Source of the DNA: Tannerella sp. | GTDB lineage: Bacteria > Bacteroidota > Bacteroidia > Bacteroidales > Tannerellaceae | Direction: 5' to 3' | Assembly: GCA_031267485.1 (NCBI GenBank) | Contig: JAIRYY010000045.1 | Span: forward strand, 1 to 21,250 | Length of the DNA stretch: 21,250 bases | Shown here: one piece after another, positions 1 through 9,476 of the stretch | Layout: each line of letters opens with the position of its first letter | Position numbering within the stretch: position 1 is the stretch's first letter | Program-made: the position numbers and the translations under genes | Notes under the pieces: generated by a model | What the model saw: only the letters and a program-made list of their open reading frames with translations | Database searches by the model: none | What the model was told of the DNA's origin: nothing

Positions 1-120
1 AAATAAAACTTTTTCATAATACAGTTTTTTATATGATTCATAATTTGTTTCATGCCATATATATGCAAAGACCGTGCCATACTGCTTAATAATTTGATTA
101 TAACCGTAGTGATTGTTCAT
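1..120 (-). CDS. 5' part of an unrecognised gene, cut by the window edge
   Basis: Reading the minus strand from an ATG at 120, forty codons stay open to the window edge. The product begins MNNHYGYNQIIKQYGTVFAY and continues rich in Tyr, Asn, Lys and Glu. A GGAAAA stretch just upstream of the ATG could be a ribosome binding site. It is divergent from the LuxR gene. A minus-strand -7-like box (267-274) lies upstream, with a palindrome placed as at the thiF-like gene, so co-regulation is likely. I do not recognise the family. The region is far more AT-rich than the rest of the window. The open frame plus promoter context supports a real gene, but 40 codons is limited evidence. Confidence 0.55.
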   Translation of the reverse strand, partial: MNNHYGYNQIIKQYGTVFAYIWHETNYESYKKLYYEKVLF

Positions 121-133
121 GTTTTTCCGTCGA

Positions 134-175
134 GTGTAAAAAAACTATACACTGCTGTAAAAAAAATTTACACTG
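134..175. repeat. Two tandem 21-bp operator-like repeats (GTGTA-N11-TACAC type)
   Basis: Units 134-154 and 155-175 match at 17 of 21 positions. Each is an A-tract flanked by inverted TGTA and TACA arms, the same half-sites as the TTACAC-N4-GTGTAA palindromes further downstream but pointing the other way. The 21-bp period is two helical turns, so equivalent half-sites lie on one face of the DNA. The repeats fall in the putative leader of the gene at 1-120. A regulator-binding role is inference. Confidence 0.5.
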
Positions 176-266
176 TCCGGGACATGCGACCGCTCATGTA
201 CAGTTTTGACATTGCCGACGGTTAGCCGGCACGGTTCGCTGCTTACTCGATTAATTTATTCCGCCA

Positions 267-274
267 CAAAAGTA
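267..274 (-). promoter_or_regulatory. Putative -7 box (TACTTTTG) for the leftward gene
   Basis: The minus strand reads TACTTTTG, matching the Bacteroidota -7 consensus TAnnTTTG. No convincing -33 TTG lies 19-21 bp upstream. Instead the palindrome at 297-312 is centred 30.5 bp before the first base of the box, which would suit an activator-dependent promoter. The predicted start is near 260, giving a leader of about 140 nt to the ATG at 120. Confidence 0.4.
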
Positions 275-296
275 AACCTCTCCCGCAACCGTCTTT

Positions 297-312
297 CTAC
301 ACAAAAGTGTAA
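297..312. promoter_or_regulatory. Palindromic operator 1 (CTACAC-AAAA-GTGTAA)
   Basis: This is a 16-bp inverted repeat with one mismatch to TTACAC-N4-GTGTAA. It lies in the divergent region between the gene at 1-120 and the LuxR gene, centred 30.5 bp upstream of the minus-strand box at 267-274. It shares arms with the sites at 335-350 and 2014-2029. The LuxR-family protein encoded next to it is the obvious candidate binder, by inference only. Confidence 0.55.
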
Positions 313-334
313 TAAATAACAAAACAGTCGATAT

Positions 335-350
335 TTACACTTTTGTGTAA
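335..350. promoter_or_regulatory. Palindromic operator 2 (TTACAC-TTTT-GTGTAA)
   Basis: The 6-bp arms TTACAC and GTGTAA are perfect inverted repeats around a T4 spacer. The centre is 38 bp from operator 1 and 59.5 bp upstream of the plus-strand -7 box of the LuxR gene. That placement would suit autoregulation. It could also be a distal second site for the leftward promoter. Confidence 0.55.
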
Positions 351-401
351 ACAAACGGGATAAATTCCGTAAAAGAATTTCCATAATCAATGAATCCTGT
401 T

Positions 402-410
402 TATCTTTGC
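402..410 (+). promoter_or_regulatory. -7 box TATCTTTGC of the LuxR-type gene
   Basis: TATCTTTGC is an exact match to the Bacteroidota -7 consensus. The -33 region (TTT at 378-380) is weak. The predicted start is near 416, so the in-frame ATG at 390 would lie inside the promoter. This makes the ATG at 438 the more likely translation start. Confidence 0.55.
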
Positions 411-437
411 CGCATAAAAAACAAGTATAGTGAGGCC

Positions 438-1193
438 ATGACGAAAGTAAAAGATTTTTTCCTGTCAATAAATGCCGTAGCCGATATTCCGGATGATGAA
501 TATCAAAAAACGGCGGTTTTGATAAGCGCGTTTGAAGCCATATCGCGGACAACATGCCAGAGTCTTTATGTAATAGATTATTTCAGAAAGGATTTTCTGT
601 ATGTATCCGCCAACCCGCTGTTTTTATGCGGACACGCGGCCGGAGAAGTCCGGGAAATGGGATATATGTTTTACATAAAAAATGTTCCGGAGGAAGAACA
701 GGCAATGCTCACCGAAATAAACAGGGCGGGGTTTGATTTTTTCAATAAAATACCGGTTGACGAACGCATTCACTATACGATCTCGTATAACTTCCACCTG
801 TTGAACGGGAAAAAGAAAACACTGATCAATCATAAACTGACGCCGGTACTGATGACGGGTGAAGGGAAAATATGGCTTGCCGCATGCGTCGTTTCACTCT
901 CCTCACACGATACGCCCGGACATATTGAAATGCGAAAGGCCGGTCAGACGGCTTTCTGGACATATTCCCGGGAAAGCCGCCGGTGGACGGAAAACCCGGG
1001 AATCGTCCTGAACGAAAGGGAACGGGACATCCTCCTGCTCTCCGCCCAGGGTTATACAATGGACGAAATAGCCGGACGGCTGTTTCTGGCCGTGGACACA
1101 ATAAAATTTCAAAAAAGACGGCTGTTCGAAAAGCTGGAAGTGAAAAATATCGTAGAAGCCCTCTCCTTCGCCTCAAACCATAAACTGCTGTAA
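438..1193 (+). CDS. LuxR-family transcriptional regulator with PAS-like N-terminus
   Basis: The 251-residue protein is probably a cytoplasmic DNA-binding regulator. Residues about 190-248 form a GerE/LuxR helix-turn-helix: LNERERDILLLSAQGYTMDE, then IAGRLFLAVDTIKFQKRRLF and a final KLEVKN segment. Residues about 40-155 read like a PAS fold (YVIDYFRKDFLYVSANPLFL). There is no receiver phospho-acceptor region and no membrane segment, so any signal is presumably intracellular. An ATG at 390 is in frame but overlaps the -7 box at 402-410, so I start at 438. The gene is convergent with the ThiF-like gene, 4 bp between stops. TTACAC-N4-GTGTAA palindromes sit upstream of it and of the ThiF-like gene. 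The class is secure; the regulon is inferred. Confidence 0.85.
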   Translation: MTKVKDFFLSINAVADIPDDEYQKTAVLISAFEAISRTTCQSLYVIDYFRKDFLYVSANPLFLCGHAAGEVREMGYMFYIKNVPEEEQAMLTEINRAGFDFFNKIPVDERIHYTISYNFHLLNGKKKTLINHKLTPVLMTGEGKIWLAACVVSLSSHDTPGHIEMRKAGQTAFWTYSRESRRWTENPGIVLNERERDILLLSAQGYTMDEIAGRLFLAVDTIKFQKRRLFEKLEVKNIVEALSFASNHKLL

Positions 1194-1197
1194 CGCG

Positions 1198-1956
1198 TCA
1201 GGTATGATCCCTGTAAATGGATGACAGGTAAAATTTGGGGAAGGTCATCACGTCCTTACCCGTCGCCAGGTTATACATTACGTTTACACAATAGCCGGCG
1301 GCAATCCAGGAAGCGACGGAAAGCTGCGGGGGCGAAGCCTCTCCTTTTTCCCTCTTATATTCGCGGATGTTCTTTTCCAGCCACTCCAGGGGAATGTTCC
1401 AAAAAGAGCTGTATCCCGCCACATACTCCGCCATCCGCAAATCAAAGTCCCGCGGATCGTTCGACAACTCGGAAAGCGGCATCCCGTCAGGCTTTGCAAC
1501 GGTCAGGAATCCGCCCCATCCGAAATTGTACGGATGCAGGACCGGAATGGCAAACTTTTTACACACACCGTCAAAAACAAACGGAATATCGGATTTGAAA
1601 TCCAGCGCATTCACGGCAATATCGTGTCCGCCGATCAACGCTTCCACGTTCGTCCCGTCGATAAAACAGTTGTGAAAGGAGATCTTTGCCTGCGGATTGA
1701 TCGCCAGCAGCCGCCCCGCCAGCGCCTCCGCCTTATATTTCCCCAAATCCGCTTCGGTATAGTTCTGCCGGTTCAGATTACTCTCCTCCACCACGTCGCC
1801 ATCCACCAGCGTGATCTGTTCAAAACCAAACCGCAGAGCACATTCGGCAATATTACTCCCGATTCCCGCCCCGCCGAAAATAACTTTCGTATTCCTTACA
1901 GTTGCCTGTTCTTCCTCGCTTACGTAAATACGATTTCTGACATATCTTTCTTCCAT
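1198..1956 (-). CDS. ThiF/MoeB/HesA-family E1-like adenylyltransferase
   Basis: Proteins of this fold use ATP to adenylate the C-terminus of a small protein or peptide (ThiS, MoaD, ubiquitin, MccA). The 252-residue product has the nucleotide-binding loop GGAGIGS (28-34), the acidic strand end and Arg finger DGDVVEESNLNRQ (52-64), a conserved GKYKAEAL segment, and NALDF (116-120) where the family's ATP-contacting Asp lies. The paired CxxC zinc motif of MoeB and ThiF is absent, and no obvious catalytic Cys follows the adenylation core. A longer frame from TTG at 1986 overlaps the promoter box at 1983-1991, so I use the ATG at 1956. No ubiquitin-like protein, E2 or JAB gene is adjacent. The substrate is unknown. 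Confidence 0.8.
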   Translation of the reverse strand: MEERYVRNRIYVSEEEQATVRNTKVIFGGAGIGSNIAECALRFGFEQITLVDGDVVEESNLNRQNYTEADLGKYKAEALAGRLLAINPQAKISFHNCFIDGTNVEALIGGHDIAVNALDFKSDIPFVFDGVCKKFAIPVLHPYNFGWGGFLTVAKPDGMPLSELSNDPRDFDLRMAEYVAGYSSFWNIPLEWLEKNIREYKREKGEASPPQLSVASWIAAGYCVNVMYNLATGKDVMTFPKFYLSSIYRDHT

Positions 1957-1982
1957 TATTGCTGCAATTATTGATTCCGGCA

Positions 1983-1991
1983 GCAAATATA
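1983..1991 (-). promoter_or_regulatory. -7 box TATATTTGC of the ThiF-like gene
   Basis: The minus strand reads TATATTTGC, a full match to TAnnTTTGC, 27 bp upstream of the ATG at 1956. There is no good -33 TTG at the right distance. The palindrome at 2014-2029 occupies that position, centred 30.5 bp before the box and roughly 45 bp before the predicted start, as for a class II activator site. Confidence 0.6.
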
Positions 1992-2013
1992 AACCGGCTT
2001 TCCAGTACCTCCA

Positions 2014-2029
2014 TTACACAATTGTGTAA
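2014..2029. promoter_or_regulatory. Palindromic operator 3 (TTACACAATTGTGTAA)
   Basis: This is a perfect 16-bp palindrome in the 77-bp gap between the GH115 stop and the ThiF-like start. It shares its arms with the two palindromes upstream of the LuxR gene. A hairpin terminator for the GH115 operon is less likely: there is no loop, and no T-run follows on the minus strand. Confidence 0.65.
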
Positions 2030-2033
2030 TTTT

Positions 2034-4562
2034 TCATTCGGCGGGCGAATAGATTGAATTTTCGTTCACCGGAAATTCATAAAAATCCTCCGCTCCCGTG
2101 CCAATCATGATTTGGTCTGCGATAATGTAAGGTGTCAGGGCTTTGATGGTGACGGTCACGTTTCCGGCCTGGGGGAAAGTATGGCGGACGGTAGACAGGG
2201 ACTGGCCGCGCAGTACGTTCTGCTTCCACGTTTCGCTGCGGCCGGAGACGCTGTAGTCCAGAACCGATATTTCCCGGCCGTCGACCGACAGGGCTATTTT
2301 CATGCCTTTCATATCCACGTCGTGATTGGGAACTGTGGCAATCTTTATCCATGCTTCGCCCGGTTCGGGTATGTCGAACGAAAACGTAAGGGCGCTTCCC
2401 TGTTTCATTTGCACGGCGGAAAAACTGTGTCCCAGTCCTTCCGTCACCGTGCCCGCGTTTGGGAGGCCGGTTGCCTGAGCGGCGTTCCGCGCCAGCACGT
2501 ATCCCTGCCGGACGATACTTTTTATTTCTTTAGCCGGCTGATGACCGGTGCGTGTCATGGAGTCAGGCCGCGGAAATGCAGGCTCGTCGAACACGGGCAG
2601 TTTGCGTGGACGGGAATCCATTATCCTGTTCCACTTGCCGTTTTCCAGCGCATTGTATTCTGCCGTGATGCGTTCCGTTTCGCGACAGGCAAGACGGCTT
2701 TTTTCCGCGTATTCCTTAGCCAGCGCCGTATCGCGATGCGTGTAATAATGCGATAGTTGGGCATACAGCCATTTCCGGTTCATCAGCGATGCGCCGCGCA
2801 CGGGATATTCGACGAATTGACAGAACGTACTCGCCCGGTGTGCCGGAATGGACGGTTTCAGCCGGGCTACCTGTTCTTCCAGCAGCAGGTATGCCTGTAT
2901 TCTGCGCTGCAGCTCGCCGCAGAACTCCGGGTTATATTCGGAATCCGTGACGGGCGTCAATCCCCGCGGGAAACCGGATTCCTCGACCCTGCTCCAGCCC
3001 ATAAATTCCGGCTTGCGGATATTTGCCAGGCGGTAGTAAGTTTTCATTATTTCCGTAACGGCAGCGGCATGCGGTTTCCCAAATTCCCTTTCCGCCCAGC
3101 AGGTCAGGTGGCCGAAGACGGACAGTTTCCCTTCATTTTCCTTCCCGGGACGGACGCCCCATGCCATATCCAGGAAAAATTCCGTCAGATATTCCGCCGG
3201 TTTGATGTCGCCTGCGTTCAGTATCCATAATCTGTCGGCCCCATGTTCGTATGCCCGCATCATTTCCGAATGAATCAATGCGGGCGAGGTGGAAGCCAGC
3301 CACAGATAATCGTGCGGTCGCCCCCAGTAGGATACGTGGTAATAGACGCCCGAACGGCCGGCGCGCGCCTGTTCGCGTGCGTCGGAAAGGCGGCGGATGT
3401 AGCCGTAATTGTCATCGCACCAGACGAGCGTCACGTGCTCCGGCACTTCCAGTCCGGCATCATACACGTCCAGCACTTCCTTGTAGGGGATAAAAATCTG
3501 AGGCGCCGACGCCGGGTCGGGATGCACGAACTGCCGGATTAGCTCCTGCTGGTCGCGGATGATTTGCGAGAGGTAAAACTTATGCTCGTCCAGCGTGCGC
3601 ACGCCCTGCATCATCCCGTCGTGCTTGCCGCGCATGCCGATGGTGTGGATGTTGTCCGACCCGCTCAGCTCCTTCAGCCGTTTCGTCCAGTAGTCGATTA
3701 TGGCATCCCTGTTGGTTGTGTAGTTGTAATCCCCCTGTCCGTCGGCGTCCCATTCGCGGACGGAGTTGCGCATCAGCGGCTCGCAGTGCGACGTCCCGAC
3801 GATAATGCCGTAACGGTCGGCAATCTCCCTGTTTCCCTCCACAAAATAAAAAGGAACCGTACATTCGTGCATGGCCGGCCAGATCGTGTTGGCGCGCAGG
3901 CGCAGCAGCAGTTCGAATATTTTCCCGTATGCTTCGGGGCCGATGGCGCCTTTTGCGGAATGGGGAGCGAGCGTTTGTGTAGCCCAGGGCATCAGTCCCC
4001 AGTCTTCGTCGTTCAGGAATATGCCTCGGTAGCGTACGGCAGGCATGTCGTGCAGCGGCGTTTCGGGAAAACCGAACGATGTCGCCGCGTCCGGTTTTGA
4101 ATCGGCAAAATAATGCCAGGGCGAGACGCCCGTCATCCGCGACAGTTCGAGTATGCCGTAGACCGTGCCGCGGCTGTCGCTTCCGGCGATAACGAGCATC
4201 GTCTTCCCGCCGTCCGTGACGGTAACGAGCTGAAACGCCTCCCATTTACCGGCTATTGCCGAGAGGTCAATCTTTCCGCTTTCGGCCAGCCGGGCTATTT
4301 CCCCGCATACTCCAACCGTACCGGCCAGAATCTGTACGGCCTCCGGGTCTTCCGACACCTGCAGGGTGGCGTCGAACACATTCCGCACGTCTTTCTGCAA
4401 AAGGGAGACGGCGGTGTGAACGGGCTGCTTTTCGCCCCTGTCCACGTAAATGGAGGTCGTACGGCCTGTTTCGAAGAGCAGGCGGTCATTCGCCGCGAAA
4501 GCCATGACCGGGATAATCGCCAATGCGCCGACTGTGGCAAATACTGTTTTCATGCGTGTCAT
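2034..4562 (-). CDS. Glycoside hydrolase family 115 xylan alpha-1,2-glucuronidase
   Basis: GH115 enzymes remove (4-O-methyl-)glucuronic acid side chains from xylan. The 842-residue protein starts MTRMKTVFATVGALAIIPVM, a signal peptide ending AFA before AND, so it is exported, probably to the periplasm. Family hallmarks are RGIFLNDEDWGLMPWA (about residue 180), the barrel segment LRLRANTIWPAMHECTVPF, GTSHCEPLMRN and HTIGMRGKHDGMM. The last ~150 residues (GYVLARNAAQATGLPNAG onward) resemble the GH115 C-terminal beta domain. Length fits the family. An upstream in-frame start at 4631 would read through the intergenic gap, so I prefer the ATG at 4562 or 4553. It is the last gene of the PUL, about 80 bp after the SusD stop, and the only enzyme in it. 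Confident on family; substrate by family knowledge. Confidence 0.9.
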   Translation of the reverse strand: MTRMKTVFATVGALAIIPVMAFAANDRLLFETGRTTSIYVDRGEKQPVHTAVSLLQKDVRNVFDATLQVSEDPEAVQILAGTVGVCGEIARLAESGKIDLSAIAGKWEAFQLVTVTDGGKTMLVIAGSDSRGTVYGILELSRMTGVSPWHYFADSKPDAATSFGFPETPLHDMPAVRYRGIFLNDEDWGLMPWATQTLAPHSAKGAIGPEAYGKIFELLLRLRANTIWPAMHECTVPFYFVEGNREIADRYGIIVGTSHCEPLMRNSVREWDADGQGDYNYTTNRDAIIDYWTKRLKELSGSDNIHTIGMRGKHDGMMQGVRTLDEHKFYLSQIIRDQQELIRQFVHPDPASAPQIFIPYKEVLDVYDAGLEVPEHVTLVWCDDNYGYIRRLSDAREQARAGRSGVYYHVSYWGRPHDYLWLASTSPALIHSEMMRAYEHGADRLWILNAGDIKPAEYLTEFFLDMAWGVRPGKENEGKLSVFGHLTCWAEREFGKPHAAAVTEIMKTYYRLANIRKPEFMGWSRVEESGFPRGLTPVTDSEYNPEFCGELQRRIQAYLLLEEQVARLKPSIPAHRASTFCQFVEYPVRGASLMNRKWLYAQLSHYYTHRDTALAKEYAEKSRLACRETERITAEYNALENGKWNRIMDSRPRKLPVFDEPAFPRPDSMTRTGHQPAKEIKSIVRQGYVLARNAAQATGLPNAGTVTEGLGHSFSAVQMKQGSALTFSFDIPEPGEAWIKIATVPNHDVDMKGMKIALSVDGREISVLDYSVSGRSETWKQNVLRGQSLSTVRHTFPQAGNVTVTIKALTPYIIADQIMIGTGAEDFYEFPVNENSIYSPAE

Positions 4563-4643
4563 ATTATTGAATTTTTGAATGTCGGGGCAGGGTGGCGGAA
4601 GAACGGGAAAACCGTCTTCCGCCACATTCACTGCGTCCCTGGT

Positions 4644-6125
4644 TTACTGTTCGTATCCGTCGTTTTGCCTCAGGTTGGGATTTTCGTTGATAGCCGCCTG
4701 GGGGATGGGGTAGAGGATGTGATAAGGCTGGGCGTCGATTCCGCGCTCAATGGCTTTCAGGATAAATTTCCCGTGACGGATGAGGTCGTTCCGTCGCCAG
4801 CCCTCATTGTATAGCTCGCGGCCGCGTTCGTCAAGAATGAAGTCGCGCAGGCTGTCCCTGTCGTAGTCGGCGAGATTAATCTCGGAGGCTTTCACGCGGC
4901 GGCGGATTTTGTTAATCAGTTCAATACTTTCGCCTGTCGGGCCCTGCAGTTCGTTCAGCGCTTCGGCTTTGGCGAGCAGGATGTCGGCATAGCGGAAGAA
5001 AATGAAGTCATTGCTCTGGTTCTCGCCGCGCTGGTCGGGGTCTTCGGAAAATTTCATCGGGATGGCGCCGGTCGCCTTGGAATCCACGACTTGACGGAAA
5101 TCCACTTCGTTATCGTCCGTATCCGTATAGTAGCGGATGATTGTGTTCAGGCGTTCGTCCTGCGGCTCGTACTTATCGTAGTATTCCCATGGCATTTTCA
5201 GTCCGCCCCAGACGTTCATTGCCGGCCCTTTCGTTTTGTAGCGCGGTATGGAGGGCATCACGCAGGCGAAATAGGTCCATGCGTAGTTCGTGTTCGAGAT
5301 GATTTTGGGGATGACGAAGATGACTTCCCTGTTGTCGGGGCCTTCGTTTTTGATGTCGAAAACGTCCTGATAGGATGGCAGGAGGTCATAGATACCCAGG
5401 CGGATGATTTCATCGGCCGTCTGGCTGGCTTCGTCCCACATTTTGGCATCAAGATAGACTTTCGTCAGCAGCGCCAGGGCGGTACCCTTGTCGGTGCGTC
5501 CCCAGTTTTCACTCGACGACTTATTGTCCAGCACAGGCCAGGATTCACGCAATTCGGCAATCAGGAAGTTGACGTATTCCCCGCTGCCCGGTTTTGCGGG
5601 TCTGTATTCCGTATAAACATCGTTGGCCACGTTTGGGTCGGTAACGACAGGCAGCGGGCCGAAAAGCGAATAAAGCGCATAGGCGTACAAAGCGCGGAGC
5701 ACGCGCAGTTCGGCGATGTACCGGGCCTTTGCATTTTCGTCCACATCGGACCTGGAAAAGGCGTCGATGATGCGTGTGGCCTTGGTGATGGCGCGGTTAT
5801 ATCTCGTATAACATTCTGTGGCGGGATTGTTGTTTGCCGCCCATGACAGACGGTTGATAATTTGCCAGCTGCTACCCCATCCGGTGTTCATCTCGTCGGT
5901 GCAGAGCGTGTTGAGCGTGATGCCGGCATAATCCAGGTTATGCCGGATATAACTGTCGCCAAGCATATTGTACACACCGATGGCAGCTGTCTGGAGGTCG
6001 GCTTGCGTAACAGGGAAGTTGCCGGAGGATATTTTTCCAAATTCTTCGTGTTCAAGATCGAAACAGCCGCATAAGAATACAAGCGTACACAGGGCGAGAC
6101 CGGTTTTATAAAAATATTTTTTCAT
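4644..6125 (-). CDS. SusD/RagB-family glycan-binding outer-membrane lipoprotein
   Basis: SusD proteins cap the SusC channel and bind oligosaccharide at the cell surface. The 493-residue protein begins MKKYFYKTGLALCTLVFLCG followed by Cys21, a lipobox. The acidic residues after it (FDLEHEE) resemble a Bacteroidota surface-export signal. The N-terminus shows the SusD-like segment LQTAAIGVYNMLGDS. The C-terminal part has the characteristic FFRYADILLAKAEALNE, the IRRRV segment and FILDERGRELYNEGWRRNDL. The ATG lies 12 bp after the susC stop, so the pair is presumably co-translated. By context with the GH115 gene it likely binds glucuronate-decorated xylo-oligosaccharides, which is inference. Confidence 0.93.
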   Translation of the reverse strand: MKKYFYKTGLALCTLVFLCGCFDLEHEEFGKISSGNFPVTQADLQTAAIGVYNMLGDSYIRHNLDYAGITLNTLCTDEMNTGWGSSWQIINRLSWAANNNPATECYTRYNRAITKATRIIDAFSRSDVDENAKARYIAELRVLRALYAYALYSLFGPLPVVTDPNVANDVYTEYRPAKPGSGEYVNFLIAELRESWPVLDNKSSSENWGRTDKGTALALLTKVYLDAKMWDEASQTADEIIRLGIYDLLPSYQDVFDIKNEGPDNREVIFVIPKIISNTNYAWTYFACVMPSIPRYKTKGPAMNVWGGLKMPWEYYDKYEPQDERLNTIIRYYTDTDDNEVDFRQVVDSKATGAIPMKFSEDPDQRGENQSNDFIFFRYADILLAKAEALNELQGPTGESIELINKIRRRVKASEINLADYDRDSLRDFILDERGRELYNEGWRRNDLIRHGKFILKAIERGIDAQPYHILYPIPQAAINENPNLRQNDGYEQ

Positions 6126-6137
6126 GTCAAGCAGATT

Positions 6138-9100
6138 TTAAAAGTTTAAATTAAGTCCTAATGAATAAGTCCGCTGGTTGGGATAGGCTGCAATCCTGTC
6201 CGTTTCGGGGTCGGTACCCTTATATTTGGTGAGGACGAACAGATTTTGCAGGTCTACGTATATCCGCGCATTTTTGAATATGTTCCCAAAGACCGTCTGC
6301 GGCAGCGTATAGCCCATTGTGAGCATTTTGAGGCGCAGGAAGTCGGCATTTTCCACCCAGAAGTCGTTGCTGCCCGCATAGCGGAGGTCCAGCCCGGACG
6401 GATAGATGCCGTCCTGACGGTCATGTTTCCACTTGTCGAAAGCATGGGTTGTGACATTGTCCCTGAACCGGAATTTGTCGGGGTCAAGCAGGATATTGTC
6501 GTTGTACTTCTGCCGGCCTGTTTCGCCGTATAAGAAGAAACTCAGGTCGAAGCCCCGGTAGCGGAACGTGTTGTACAGCCCGAAAGTCAGGCTGGGCTGA
6601 CTGTTGGCGATGATGACTTTGTCGGCGTCGTCCACCGCGCCGTCCGGCGCGCCCGAAAGCTGCTGGCGGCCGTCGGCGTCGAGGATGTAGTTGCCGCCGG
6701 CATCCTTGAGCCATCCGTTCAGGTCTTTGATTTTCATTGTCCCCACAATGGCGCCGGGCATGTGCGACACGTCGTCGCCCGGCTGAATCAGTCCGTCCGT
6801 GACGTATCCCCACGTGACGTGCAGCGGGTCGGCTGTCGTGTTGTACACGTTCAGAATCGTAAACGGATTGCGTTCTTTCCAGCGGTCTTTGAAATGCGAG
6901 ATGTTGAAATCGGTCGTCCAGGTGAACCGGCTGTTGCGGACGTTGACGCTCGACAGCTGAAATTCCCAGCCCTGCCCCAGCGTCATGCCGAGATTGTCGG
7001 CCACGGTGCTGACCGGATAGTACGAACCCACATTGCGGTTGTCCAGCAGGTCGGAAACCGTCTTCCGGAAAAAGTCGAACGAACCGGTCAGGCGGTTTTT
7101 GAACAGGCCGAAATCAAGCCCGAAATTAAATTCGGTCGTGGTTTCCCATTTCAGTTTGCTGCTTTCCAGCTGGTTTTCGGAGACGCCGGTGCGGAGTGTT
7201 CCGCCCAGGATGTAATTTGTACCCGACGCGTAGTAGCCGTAGGCATTGCCGCCGATTTCGGAGTTGCCGGTCTGTCCGACGCTGGCACGCAGTTTCAGGT
7301 TCGAAACCGTCCCGTGCGACTTCATAAACTCCTCTTCCGTGATGCGCCAGGCCGCCGACCCGGAGGGGAAGTACCCGAAGCGGTTTTCACGTCCGAAGCG
7401 GTCGCTTCCGTCGGCGCGCAGGGTGAACATGAACAGGTACCGGTCGGCAATATCGTAGTTCAGCCGTCCGAAGTAGGAGAGGTACTTGATGATGGTCTTT
7501 TCGCTCGCGACCGACTTGGTCAAATCTCCGCCGCCGCCCAGGTTGTATACGTTGTAGACATCGCTCACGAAGTCGGAATTGGAAGCGGTGACACTTTCGC
7601 TGATGAATGTCTGGTAAGCATATCCGGCCATTGCCTTCAGATGATGGCCGGCGAACAGCGTCCTGTCGTAAGTCAGCGTGGCGTCGAGCAGATAATCGTT
7701 CCCGCGCGCATCCTTGATGTAGGCATACGAATTGAGCGTGTTTCCCCGCAGGGTGGTTTTGGGGAAATACTGATTGTTCCGGATGAAATTCTGGTTTGTC
7801 CCCCAGCTGGCGCGGAAGTTCAGTCCGTCCGCGAGCTGAGCGTTCCAGAAATTGGTAATCAGGAAACGGTTATCGCGTTGCGTGTTGGTGACATCCTTAT
7901 TCGATACGGGGTTGGGGATTGTCGGGTGATTGGGGTTGATGACGTAGTTGCCGTCGCCGTCCCTTATCGGAAGGTAACGCGGATAGACGATTGCCTGACG
8001 GACCAGTCCGGTGGGGTCGTCCCAGCGCGTGGCAGCCTCCAGAAGGTCGGCGTCCTGCTGATTGCCGGAGACCGTGACGCCGGTGGTAAGCCATTTGGAA
8101 AGATGAAAATCGGCGGCGAGACGGACCATGAACTTCTCGTATCCGCTTTTCACGATGACGCCCTTGTGCTTGAAGTGTCCGAGAGAGAACGTGTAGGTGG
8201 CCTTTTCGCTTCCGCCGGTGATGGCGATGCTTTCGTTGTCAATCATGCCGGTACGCGAAATCTCGTCGAACCAGTTCGTGATGTCGCGTGCGGAGGCAAT
8301 CTCCTGTTCGCTGAAAGCGACGACCGGCCCTGTCGCCACGGTCGCGGGGTCAACATTCCCGTAAGGCGCGATTTTGTTGTTAAACATCCATTCCTCCTCG
8401 TAAAACTCGTTGGTGAGCCGCATGTAGTCTTTGGCCTGGATGAGGTCGTAGGGGTTGGATATGGTCTGCAGGGAGGTGCTGAGCTGCACGCTGACGTTCA
8501 GCGTGCCGGCCTGCCCCTTTTTGGTATTGACAAGGATGACGCCGTTGGCTGCCCGCGCGCCGTAGATGGCCGTGGCGCTGGCATCCTTGAGGACTTCGAT
8601 GGATTCAATATCGTTGGGGCTTATCGTGTTGATGTTGCCTCCGGGGAAGCCGTCGATGACGTACAGGGGATTGTTGCCGGCTCCGGTGGACGTCGCGCCG
8701 CGAATGAGCACCGAGTAACCGCCTGTGGGTTCGGCCGAATTTTGCGTGATGGTCAGTCCCGGCACGCGTCCCGTCAGGAGATTGGAGATGGAAGTCGTGG
8801 CTGCCATGGGGATATCCGTCATCTTTACCGACGACACGGCGCCGGTGAGGTTGGATTTCTTCACGGTACCGTATCCGACGACGATGATTTCATCCAGCGC
8901 CAGATTGTTCTCCTCGAGCGTGACGCTGAGACTTGACTGCCGTCCGACGTGGATATCCTGCGTGATGTATCCGATATACGACACCTGCAGGATGGCGTTT
9001 TCCGTCACATTCAGGCTGAACATCCCGTCCGCGTCCGTCACGGTCCCGTTGGTCGTGCCCTTCTCGACAATGTTAGCTCCGATGACCGCATCTCCCGCCG

Positions 9101-9476
9101 CGTCTTTTATCGTGCCGGTAATCTGCCGCAATTCCTGCGGAGGGCGGTTGGGATTGACCAGAATGTGGCTGCCCTGAATGGTATAAGTGCAGTCAATCTC
9201 GTCCAGAATGGCTGTCAGCGCATCGGACAGCTTCGCGTTCCTGTATGCTTTCCGCAATCTTGCTTCGGTGTTGACCGTCCGGTCGTTGTAGTCGACCGAG
9301 AGGTTGCTTTGCCGTTCGATTTCAAGAAAGGCTTCCTTCAATGTTATTTGCGCCGGAAGGGATACCGTCTGATTCTGCGCCCCGGCAAATGTGGAACAGA
9401 AAGGGAATAGCATGATGAAAAAAAGTTTTGCAATACTGTTTGTAATGTATTTTTGATTTTTAAAATGTAATCTCAT
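6138..9476 (-). CDS. SusC/RagA-family TonB-dependent transporter with STN domain
   Basis: This 1112-residue outer-membrane transporter imports oligosaccharides with energy from TonB. In order it has a signal peptide (about 1-33, ending FAGAQ), an STN domain (about 36-108, TLKEAFLEIERQSNLSVDY), a carboxypeptidase-regulatory-like beta domain (118-190, VIGANIVEKGTTNGTVTDAD), a TonB-box-like DEIIVVGYG (195-203), a plug (ISNLLTGRVPGLTI; NPLYVIDGFPGG; IEVLKDASATAIYGARAANG) and a 22-strand-type barrel ending in Phe (TYSLGLNLNF). The STN domain, with a FecR and an ECF sigma gene upstream, indicates trans-envelope signalling: substrate loading should release the sigma factor. A candidate antisense RNA lies opposite its leader. 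The start at 9476 precedes a hydrophobic signal segment. Confidence 0.95.
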   Translation of the reverse strand: MRLHFKNQKYITNSIAKLFFIMLFPFCSTFAGAQNQTVSLPAQITLKEAFLEIERQSNLSVDYNDRTVNTEARLRKAYRNAKLSDALTAILDEIDCTYTIQGSHILVNPNRPPQELRQITGTIKDAAGDAVIGANIVEKGTTNGTVTDADGMFSLNVTENAILQVSYIGYITQDIHVGRQSSLSVTLEENNLALDEIIVVGYGTVKKSNLTGAVSSVKMTDIPMAATTSISNLLTGRVPGLTITQNSAEPTGGYSVLIRGATSTGAGNNPLYVIDGFPGGNINTISPNDIESIEVLKDASATAIYGARAANGVILVNTKKGQAGTLNVSVQLSTSLQTISNPYDLIQAKDYMRLTNEFYEEEWMFNNKIAPYGNVDPATVATGPVVAFSEQEIASARDITNWFDEISRTGMIDNESIAITGGSEKATYTFSLGHFKHKGVIVKSGYEKFMVRLAADFHLSKWLTTGVTVSGNQQDADLLEAATRWDDPTGLVRQAIVYPRYLPIRDGDGNYVINPNHPTIPNPVSNKDVTNTQRDNRFLITNFWNAQLADGLNFRASWGTNQNFIRNNQYFPKTTLRGNTLNSYAYIKDARGNDYLLDATLTYDRTLFAGHHLKAMAGYAYQTFISESVTASNSDFVSDVYNVYNLGGGGDLTKSVASEKTIIKYLSYFGRLNYDIADRYLFMFTLRADGSDRFGRENRFGYFPSGSAAWRITEEEFMKSHGTVSNLKLRASVGQTGNSEIGGNAYGYYASGTNYILGGTLRTGVSENQLESSKLKWETTTEFNFGLDFGLFKNRLTGSFDFFRKTVSDLLDNRNVGSYYPVSTVADNLGMTLGQGWEFQLSSVNVRNSRFTWTTDFNISHFKDRWKERNPFTILNVYNTTADPLHVTWGYVTDGLIQPGDDVSHMPGAIVGTMKIKDLNGWLKDAGGNYILDADGRQQLSGAPDGAVDDADKVIIANSQPSLTFGLYNTFRYRGFDLSFFLYGETGRQKYNDNILLDPDKFRFRDNVTTHAFDKWKHDRQDGIYPSGLDLRYAGSNDFWVENADFLRLKMLTMGYTLPQTVFGNIFKNARIYVDLQNLFVLTKYKGTDPETDRIAAYPNQRTYSLGLNLNF

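Follow-up and report, generated by a model that had tools for sequence, protein, structure and literature searches.

The window, by which we mean the whole stretch of 21,250 nucleotides analyzed here, is contig C140 of a Tannerella sp. genome assembly (2.73 Mb, 77% complete). Close to its left end lie a gene for a LuxR-type regulator (luxR), a ThiF-family gene (thiF) and the start of a leftward gene, together with three palindromes and three promoter boxes.

1-120, minus strand: start of the leftward gene, an open frame with its ATG at 120 that runs for 40 codons to the contig end
267-274, minus strand: -7 box of the leftward promoter, TACTTTTG, 30.5 bp from the centre of 297-312
297-312, no strand: near operator (predicted), CTACACAAAAGTGTAA, 5/6 arm pairs
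335-350, no strand: far operator (predicted), TTACACTTTTGTGTAA, 6/6 arm pairs, 38 bp from 297-312
402-409, plus strand: -7 box of luxR, TATCTTTG, 59.5 bp from the centre of 335-350 (37.5 bp in many relatives)
438-1193, plus strand: luxR, 251 aa, with a PAS-like N-terminal domain, a GerE/LuxR HTH and K226 in the recognition helix (Pfam, AlphaFold2, Foldseek)
1198-1956, minus strand: thiF, ThiF-family E1-like adenylyltransferase of 252 aa (Pfam ThiF PF00899, E 6.8e-31), a predicted target
1984-1991, minus strand: -7 box of thiF, TATATTTG, 30.5 bp from the centre of 2014-2029
2014-2029, no strand: single predicted operator of thiF, TTACACAATTGTGTAA, 6/6 arm pairs

The sites, their geometry, their conservation, their co-occurrence with the regulator and the families of the target genes are computed results. 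As contig C140 begins at window position 1, little of the leftward gene is available: the sole Pfam match of 1-123 was DUF6446 at E 0.14, and window 1-265 matched only itself in a search of the genome. In the leader of this gene (124-175, minus strand), we noticed two near-copies of CAGTGTA...TTTTTTTACA(G/C), an inside-out version of the operator arms. When 110-262 was tested as an RNA, it folded weakly better than shuffled sequences with an unstriking z of -1.78, and the sole Rfam match in window 1-2100 was one sub-threshold miRNA model. To the right of the module, 2034-9476 carries GH115, SusD and SusC/TonB-type genes, which represent a xylan-type polysaccharide locus; no operator site at two or fewer mismatches was found in these SusC/SusD/GH115 genes. 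The protein encoded by thiF carries the GxGxxGS-like nucleotide motif as GGAGIGS and belongs to the ThiF/MoeB E1-like family, and it scored below the cut-off of every one of the 21 NCBIfam models listed.

The regulator is a member of the LuxR/NarL HTH superfamily, as its residues 190-245 matched PF00196 (GerE) with an E of 9.1e-13. No autoinducer-binding domain (PF03472) was found by Pfam, which yielded GerE and a sub-threshold sigma region only. The AlphaFold2 model (pLDDT 92) consisted of a PAS-like domain, a small beta extension and the HTH, and the Foldseek search with this model returned 3clo first and then VqmA. The former, a LuxR-HTH protein of B. thetaiotaomicron (NP_811094.1), is the closest solved structure and shares the domain layout and the order of bacteria with the window LuxR, albeit with only 18-19% identity over the whole length. 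VqmA, the PAS-LuxR receptor of DPO in Vibrio (6ugl, 7dwm and 6ide), likewise unites a PAS domain and a LuxR-type HTH in one protein, but the whole-chain TM-scores were low (0.28-0.36 of the query), and its target genes and operator are different.

The TTACAC-N4-GTGTAA palindromes, assigned to 297-312, 335-350 and 2014-2029 in the initial annotation, are present at these positions and are the sole matches in the whole window at two or fewer mismatches. At three mismatches, eight matches were found against a mean of 5.0 in shuffled sequences, and 14 of 100 shuffles reached eight; as this count is unremarkable, it is the near-exact sites, with their geometry, that carry the signal. The distance of 30.5 bp from palindrome centre to box, claimed for the two leftward promoters, was obtained again for both. 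The first box (267-274) stood as described but the second, given as 1983-1991, is corrected to 1984-1991. Likewise, the geometry held to be identical around the LuxR/ThiF module applies to both leftward promoters but not to the promoter of luxR itself, because the box of the latter lies 59.5 bp from the nearest site. The earlier account of the sites also missed the operator pairs with a spacing of 38 or 39 bp, as well as the feeM and peptide targets of relatives (see below). In the window, 297-312 and 335-350 are mirror images of each other (15/16 bases equal after reverse-complementing one), and their spacing of 38 bp places the centre of 335-350 at 68.5 bp from the box at 267-274.

Across the genome, TTACAC-N4-GTGTAA occurred at nine places with at most one mismatch (two for the reversed-pattern control), namely three in the window, two on C74, two on C167 and one each on C173 and C299. 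The single sites on C173 and C299 had no box at 30.5 bp and were dropped as chance matches. The pairs on C74 and C167 repeat the situation in the window, with a spacing of 38 bp and the TACTTTTG box at 30.5 bp, and precede genes for CarboxypepD_reg-domain proteins of the outer-membrane TonB type. Altogether, the 30.5-bp geometry was seen at all four operator promoters found in this genome (two in the window and one each on C74 and C167). On C167, a repetitive frame with GKDHNH/GKEQNH-like repeats (L011:2997-3390) separates the operator promoter from the outer-membrane protein gene, and is absent at the otherwise similar promoter on C74.

A contig scan for relatives of LuxR matched 361 stretches, 252 of which encode a relative, and the best 80 of the 252 were kept. 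The arrangement recurs in related bacteria of the gut, mouth and rumen, both Tannerella with an orthologous luxR and Prevotella relatives. In T. forsythia G014 (LuxR 51% identical), we found a feeM-like gene, an operator, luxR, thiF and an operator in this order, with the boxes at 30.5 bp. The second site and its box carry one mismatch each, the first promoter has a single site with the far one absent, and the feeM-like gene is a frame of 140 codons, shorter than others. G016 (LuxR 48%) possesses the operator variant CTACACAAAAGGGTAA / TTACCCTTTTGTGTGG at a spacing of 38 bp, and TACATTTG at 30.5 bp before feeM. Sites with at most one mismatch were detected in 24 of the 80 best loci, and the 73 exact boxes located 15.5-60.5 bp from such sites fell at 30.5 bp (52), 37.5 bp (19), 29.5 bp (1) and 36.5 bp (1), those at 37.5 bp belonging mostly to the promoter of luxR itself. 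The operator-plus-box composite, when variants and one mismatch were tolerated, was found in 50/80 best loci and in 0/80 for the reversed control; it occurred in 28 of the 30 loci with thiF or feeM, compared with 22 of the 50 without (Fisher p 9e-6). The palindrome is thus conserved near LuxR/ThiF orthologues, on which the initial annotation had staked its reading.

De-duplication by context (flanks under 60% identity, no selection on distance) reduced 186 sites to 54. Around these 54 sites, boxes stood at 30.5 bp in 25 cases, at 69.5 bp in 12, at 68.5 bp in 5 and at 37.5 bp in 4, with one or two at any other distance, and five sites had no box within 12-70 bp. The 17 boxes at 68.5 or 69.5 bp fit the expectation for the partner sites of pairs. 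Among 26 distinct site pairs, the spacing was 39 bp in 18, 38 bp in 5, and 37, 45 and 84 bp in one each (i.e., 38 or 39 bp in 23/26).

With the box centred at -7, the operator centre falls near -41, which is a class II position; for reference, the lux box is centred near -42.5, and class II CRP sites are comparable. In their one fixed operator position over the upstream element, the leftward promoters match the class II type of activator promoter, and the promoter of luxR itself differs. From 106 composites, we kept 39 promoters with unlike spacers, the box distance being the selection rule; they share TAnnTTTGC after a 22-bp spacer. In the -33 zone, only one of these 39 carried TTG (spacing 17-23) and none carried TTTG, whereas TTG was found in 36 of the 133 other promoters taken from these loci (spacing 18-22), with a peak at a spacing of 20. 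A second selection of operator promoters gave TTG in 1/17 (p 0.07 for 17 versus 133; p 1e-4 for the 39 against that rate). The initial annotation saw no good -33 element at the two leftward promoters of the window, and neither did we. The primary promoters of Bacteroides comprise elements centred at -7 and -33, but the -33 motif was not identifiable in Flavobacterium, as stated in the parts of PMC7366714 considered here, so we regard the absence of a -33 element as supporting evidence only.

Of 25 LuxR genomes, which had mostly been selected for the sites at their loci, 22 contained the exact composite (70 matches in total, none for the control); it was absent from G042, G016 and P. distasonis G451. 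In the order draw (393 genomes), the exact composite was found in four genomes, all of which are among the 15 with this LuxR (E 1e-40; Fisher p 1.4e-6). In the Prevotella-side family draw (399 genomes), there were 24 matches in seven genomes, all among the 52 with LuxR (Fisher p 4.4e-7), and none for the reversed control. Although both draws include genomes used for training the pattern, G095, G654 and G719 were not used for learning and all three possess LuxR; G654 and G719 were found through the composite alone and each has luxR between its sites. Rather than being scattered genome-wide, exact composites were confined to genomes with LuxR (4/4 and 7/7 in the two draws). They were absent from 11/15 (order) and 45/52 (family) of the LuxR-positive genomes, and subfamilies therefore use variants or something else. 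The one-mismatch composite was discarded as a discriminator, since 26/393 genomes matched it against 28 for the reversed control. The exact 16-mer occurred in at least five of 41 Tannerella-group genomes (G000, G014, G042, G044 and G009), and the first four are among the eight genomes of this group with LuxR at E 1e-35. G009, a genome in neither of the draws, carries an exact operator-plus-box at thiF, and all that was seen of this luxR is a stretch of 51 codons at the end of a contig.

Several loci depart from this pattern. In G041, which has a 34% identical LuxR homologue, no site at one or fewer mismatches was found genome-wide; the homologue stands, without an operator, beside a gene for a radical SAM/SPASM enzyme and one for a 70-aa Cys-containing peptide (L068:5868-10266), and is perhaps a sister system with another site. 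In G043, the sole site near luxR sits inside a gene. In G095, where three LuxR matches were obtained, one of which lies in the part of C7 that was read, TTACCC-N4-GGGTAA composites precede genes for secreted-type proteins (L258-L260; exact on C69 and C139, one mismatch on C7), perhaps representing a second type of regulon. Upstream of luxR in L127, L131, L133, L134, L149, L162, L165 and L174, CACACTTTAGGGTGTG was found 37.5 bp before a TAnnTTTG box and is probably the operator variant of a rumen-rich subfamily.

The operator variants can be compared with residue 226 in the recognition helix of LuxR. R accompanied CCC half-sites in 58/68 and K accompanied CAC in 115/125 (Fisher p 4e-28, inflated by relatedness as the loci are non-independent). 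The window (K, CAC) and L098 (R, CCC) form a pair that fits this correlation, but the KSYRR regulators of the T. forsythia group carry CAC sites against it, and mixed sites also occur. On the tree, K/R and CAC/CCC each change three times, so few that an independent-pairs test cannot reach significance. The residue thus appears to track the operator variant (K with CAC, R with CCC) over a small number of independent switches.

We then considered which genes follow the operators. In 111 composites (at most one mismatch, redundant), the nearest downstream family was an outer-membrane protein in 35, thiF in 27 and feeM in 20; in 14, genes of the radical SAM, GG-peptide or GLPGLI types followed, either next or at a greater distance, and none of these families was seen in 15, including the leftward gene of the window. 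In 41 non-redundant composites, the counts were thiF 11, outer-membrane protein 10, feeM 5, radical SAM 1 and none 14. Many operator sites lie within a few kb of luxR; among the remote stretches read, a luxR copy or piece was present in L251 and L255, and none in L252 (thiF) and L254 (outer-membrane gene). The radical SAM/SPASM proteins linked to operators in L102, L112 and L142 scored strongly, yet below the equivalog cut-offs. Of five small frames scanned, that of L114 alone matched TIGR04149, below the cut-off, and the frame scanned in L142 may differ from the peptide frame. C39 peptidase domains are encoded in two operator-linked clusters (L104/L256 and L251).

We found no feeM in this 77%-complete genome, the window included. 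A feeM-like sequence was present in 24 of 81 loci scanned (the window not among them) and, among 41 genomes of the genus, in three, again not this one. Against the FeeM family (PF21926), the G016 protein scored above the cut-off (32.3 versus 27 bits), but Prevotella L138 (25.9 bits) and T. forsythia L048 (19.6 bits) were below it. The model of the FeeM-like protein of Prevotella L142 had a pLDDT of 72 and retrieved the N-acyl amino acid synthase FeeM (2g0b) as the top Foldseek match, with LasI also listed, but among 285 matches at E 0.001 that include many other GNAT folds. FeeM-like proteins numbered 410 at E of 0.001 or below, and the best 120 of the 410 include those of Flavobacterium, Tenacibaculum and Chryseobacterium, mostly annotated as 'hypothetical'. 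The predicted targets are thiF, genes for FeeM-like N-acyl synthases and for TonB-type outer-membrane proteins and, in Prevotella, also RiPP-type operons.

Altogether, we consider it quite probable that the palindromes are operators of a PAS-LuxR activator of the class II type, which is encoded between the sites and governs a local peptide regulon. LuxR itself, the natural candidate in the initial annotation too, is likely the operator-binding activator, a choice favored by the conservation of the sites near its orthologues and the co-occurrence in the two draws. A LuxR dimer with a PAS-like sensor domain would bind TTACAC-N4-GTGTAA centred near -41 relative to the transcription start and, lying over the -33 zone, would recruit sigma-ABfr RNA polymerase to promoters that have a -7 element only. 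At many target promoters, a second dimer may occupy the mirror-image operator 38-39 bp further upstream. The regulon would comprise thiF, the divergent neighbour (feeM or an outer-membrane protein gene in relatives) and nearby operons for peptides and outer-membrane proteins. The identity of LuxR as the binder, activation, the start site and a ligand of the PAS domain are what we infer from the sequences.

The same dimer might instead repress, covering the -33 zone and blocking the polymerase until a ligand gives relief. The operator does overlap this zone, the promoter of luxR itself has another distance, and divergent autoregulatory sites are common for repressors; nevertheless, operator promoters lacking a -33 element (TTG 1/39 versus 36/133) should be weak unaided, and a repressor would not need the exact spacing seen in the 25 boxes at 30.5 bp around the 54 unique-context sites, so we regard repression as unlikely. 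Somewhat harder to sustain is the idea that the palindromes are the target of another regulator, for instance a Crp/Fnr-like one, with the LuxR gene just carried along in the cluster. Several regulator families typically use short palindromes with an N4 spacer, and G009 has an exact site with no intact luxR seen, but exact composites were found only in genomes with this LuxR (two draws), the sites still flank luxR at about 50% protein identity, and the operator variant tracks the recognition-helix residue.

It is very improbable that the conservation merely reflects the spread of a single promoter cassette, by recent common descent or by mobility, instead of selection for the geometry. The promoters on C140, C74 and C167 can be aligned by eye over about 100 bp, the module in Prevotella L119 (5651-8751) has an HTH_17 pair as well as VapE-like and DnaG-zinc-ribbon genes as neighbours, a content usual for mobile elements, and LuxR genes on mobilizable transposons of P. 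intermedia are described in the parts of PMC4755523 considered here. Yet 30.5 bp still dominated after the de-duplication, in which distance was not selected; the 39 spacer-distinct promoters were selected on distance and therefore show spacer divergence only. The gene content around the L119 module suggests that it rides on a mobilizable element, and frames resembling these mobile-type genes were also noticed in L112 and L114.

The PAS-LuxR activator proposed here shares with the LuxR/LuxI system the LuxR-family HTH and a palindromic operator that overlaps the -35/-33 zone at a constant position of the class II type; a number of relatives also have a divergent neighbour that encodes an enzyme of the LuxI superfamily (FeeM-like). 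The activator system differs in having a PAS-like N-terminal domain in place of the autoinducer-binding one, a 6-4-6 operator, a Bacteroidota -7 promoter and a FeeM-like synthase, with no feeM found in this genome. The LuxI family (PF00765) was not among the Pfam matches of the relatives' neighbour of luxR, which is FeeM-like. Some Prevotella loci recall the RiPP clusters of Bacteroidales that combine GG-leader peptides with PCAT exporters (PMC10352776), as their operators are accompanied by GG-leader-like peptides, radical SAM enzymes, exporters of the C39 type and outer-membrane proteins, but the main text of that survey contains no occurrence of LuxR, ThiF, acyltransferase or TonB. Among the matches listed in the open-licence literature, we found none that deals with this operator or with the LuxR/FeeM/ThiF module. 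Since feeM belongs to the operator-controlled set of relatives and the regulator has the PAS-LuxR form, we tentatively raise a more far-reaching and rather doubtful scenario of a quorum-sensing-like circuit. The FeeM-like enzyme would make an N-acyl amino acid or similar signal; PAS-LuxR would sense it and activate feeM, thiF and operons for modified peptides and receptors via the 6-4-6 operator replacing the -33 element; and the module would travel among Tannerella, Prevotella and relatives on mobile elements.

Bacteroidota promoters differ from those of E. coli, and to our knowledge few transcription-factor operators have been defined in this phylum. For the operator described here, a probable regulator, a precise promoter distance and a set of targets are at hand, and it is thus directly testable; the composite can serve to find regulon members in raw sequence, as in the family draw. 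In relatives, the arrangement seems to activate genes whose products are peptides and an enzyme that may make a chemical signal. Since peptide-type operons, C39 exporters and an enzyme of the LuxI superfamily are among the targets there, the system offers a handle on whether competition peptides in Bacteroidales are controlled by small-molecule signalling of their own.
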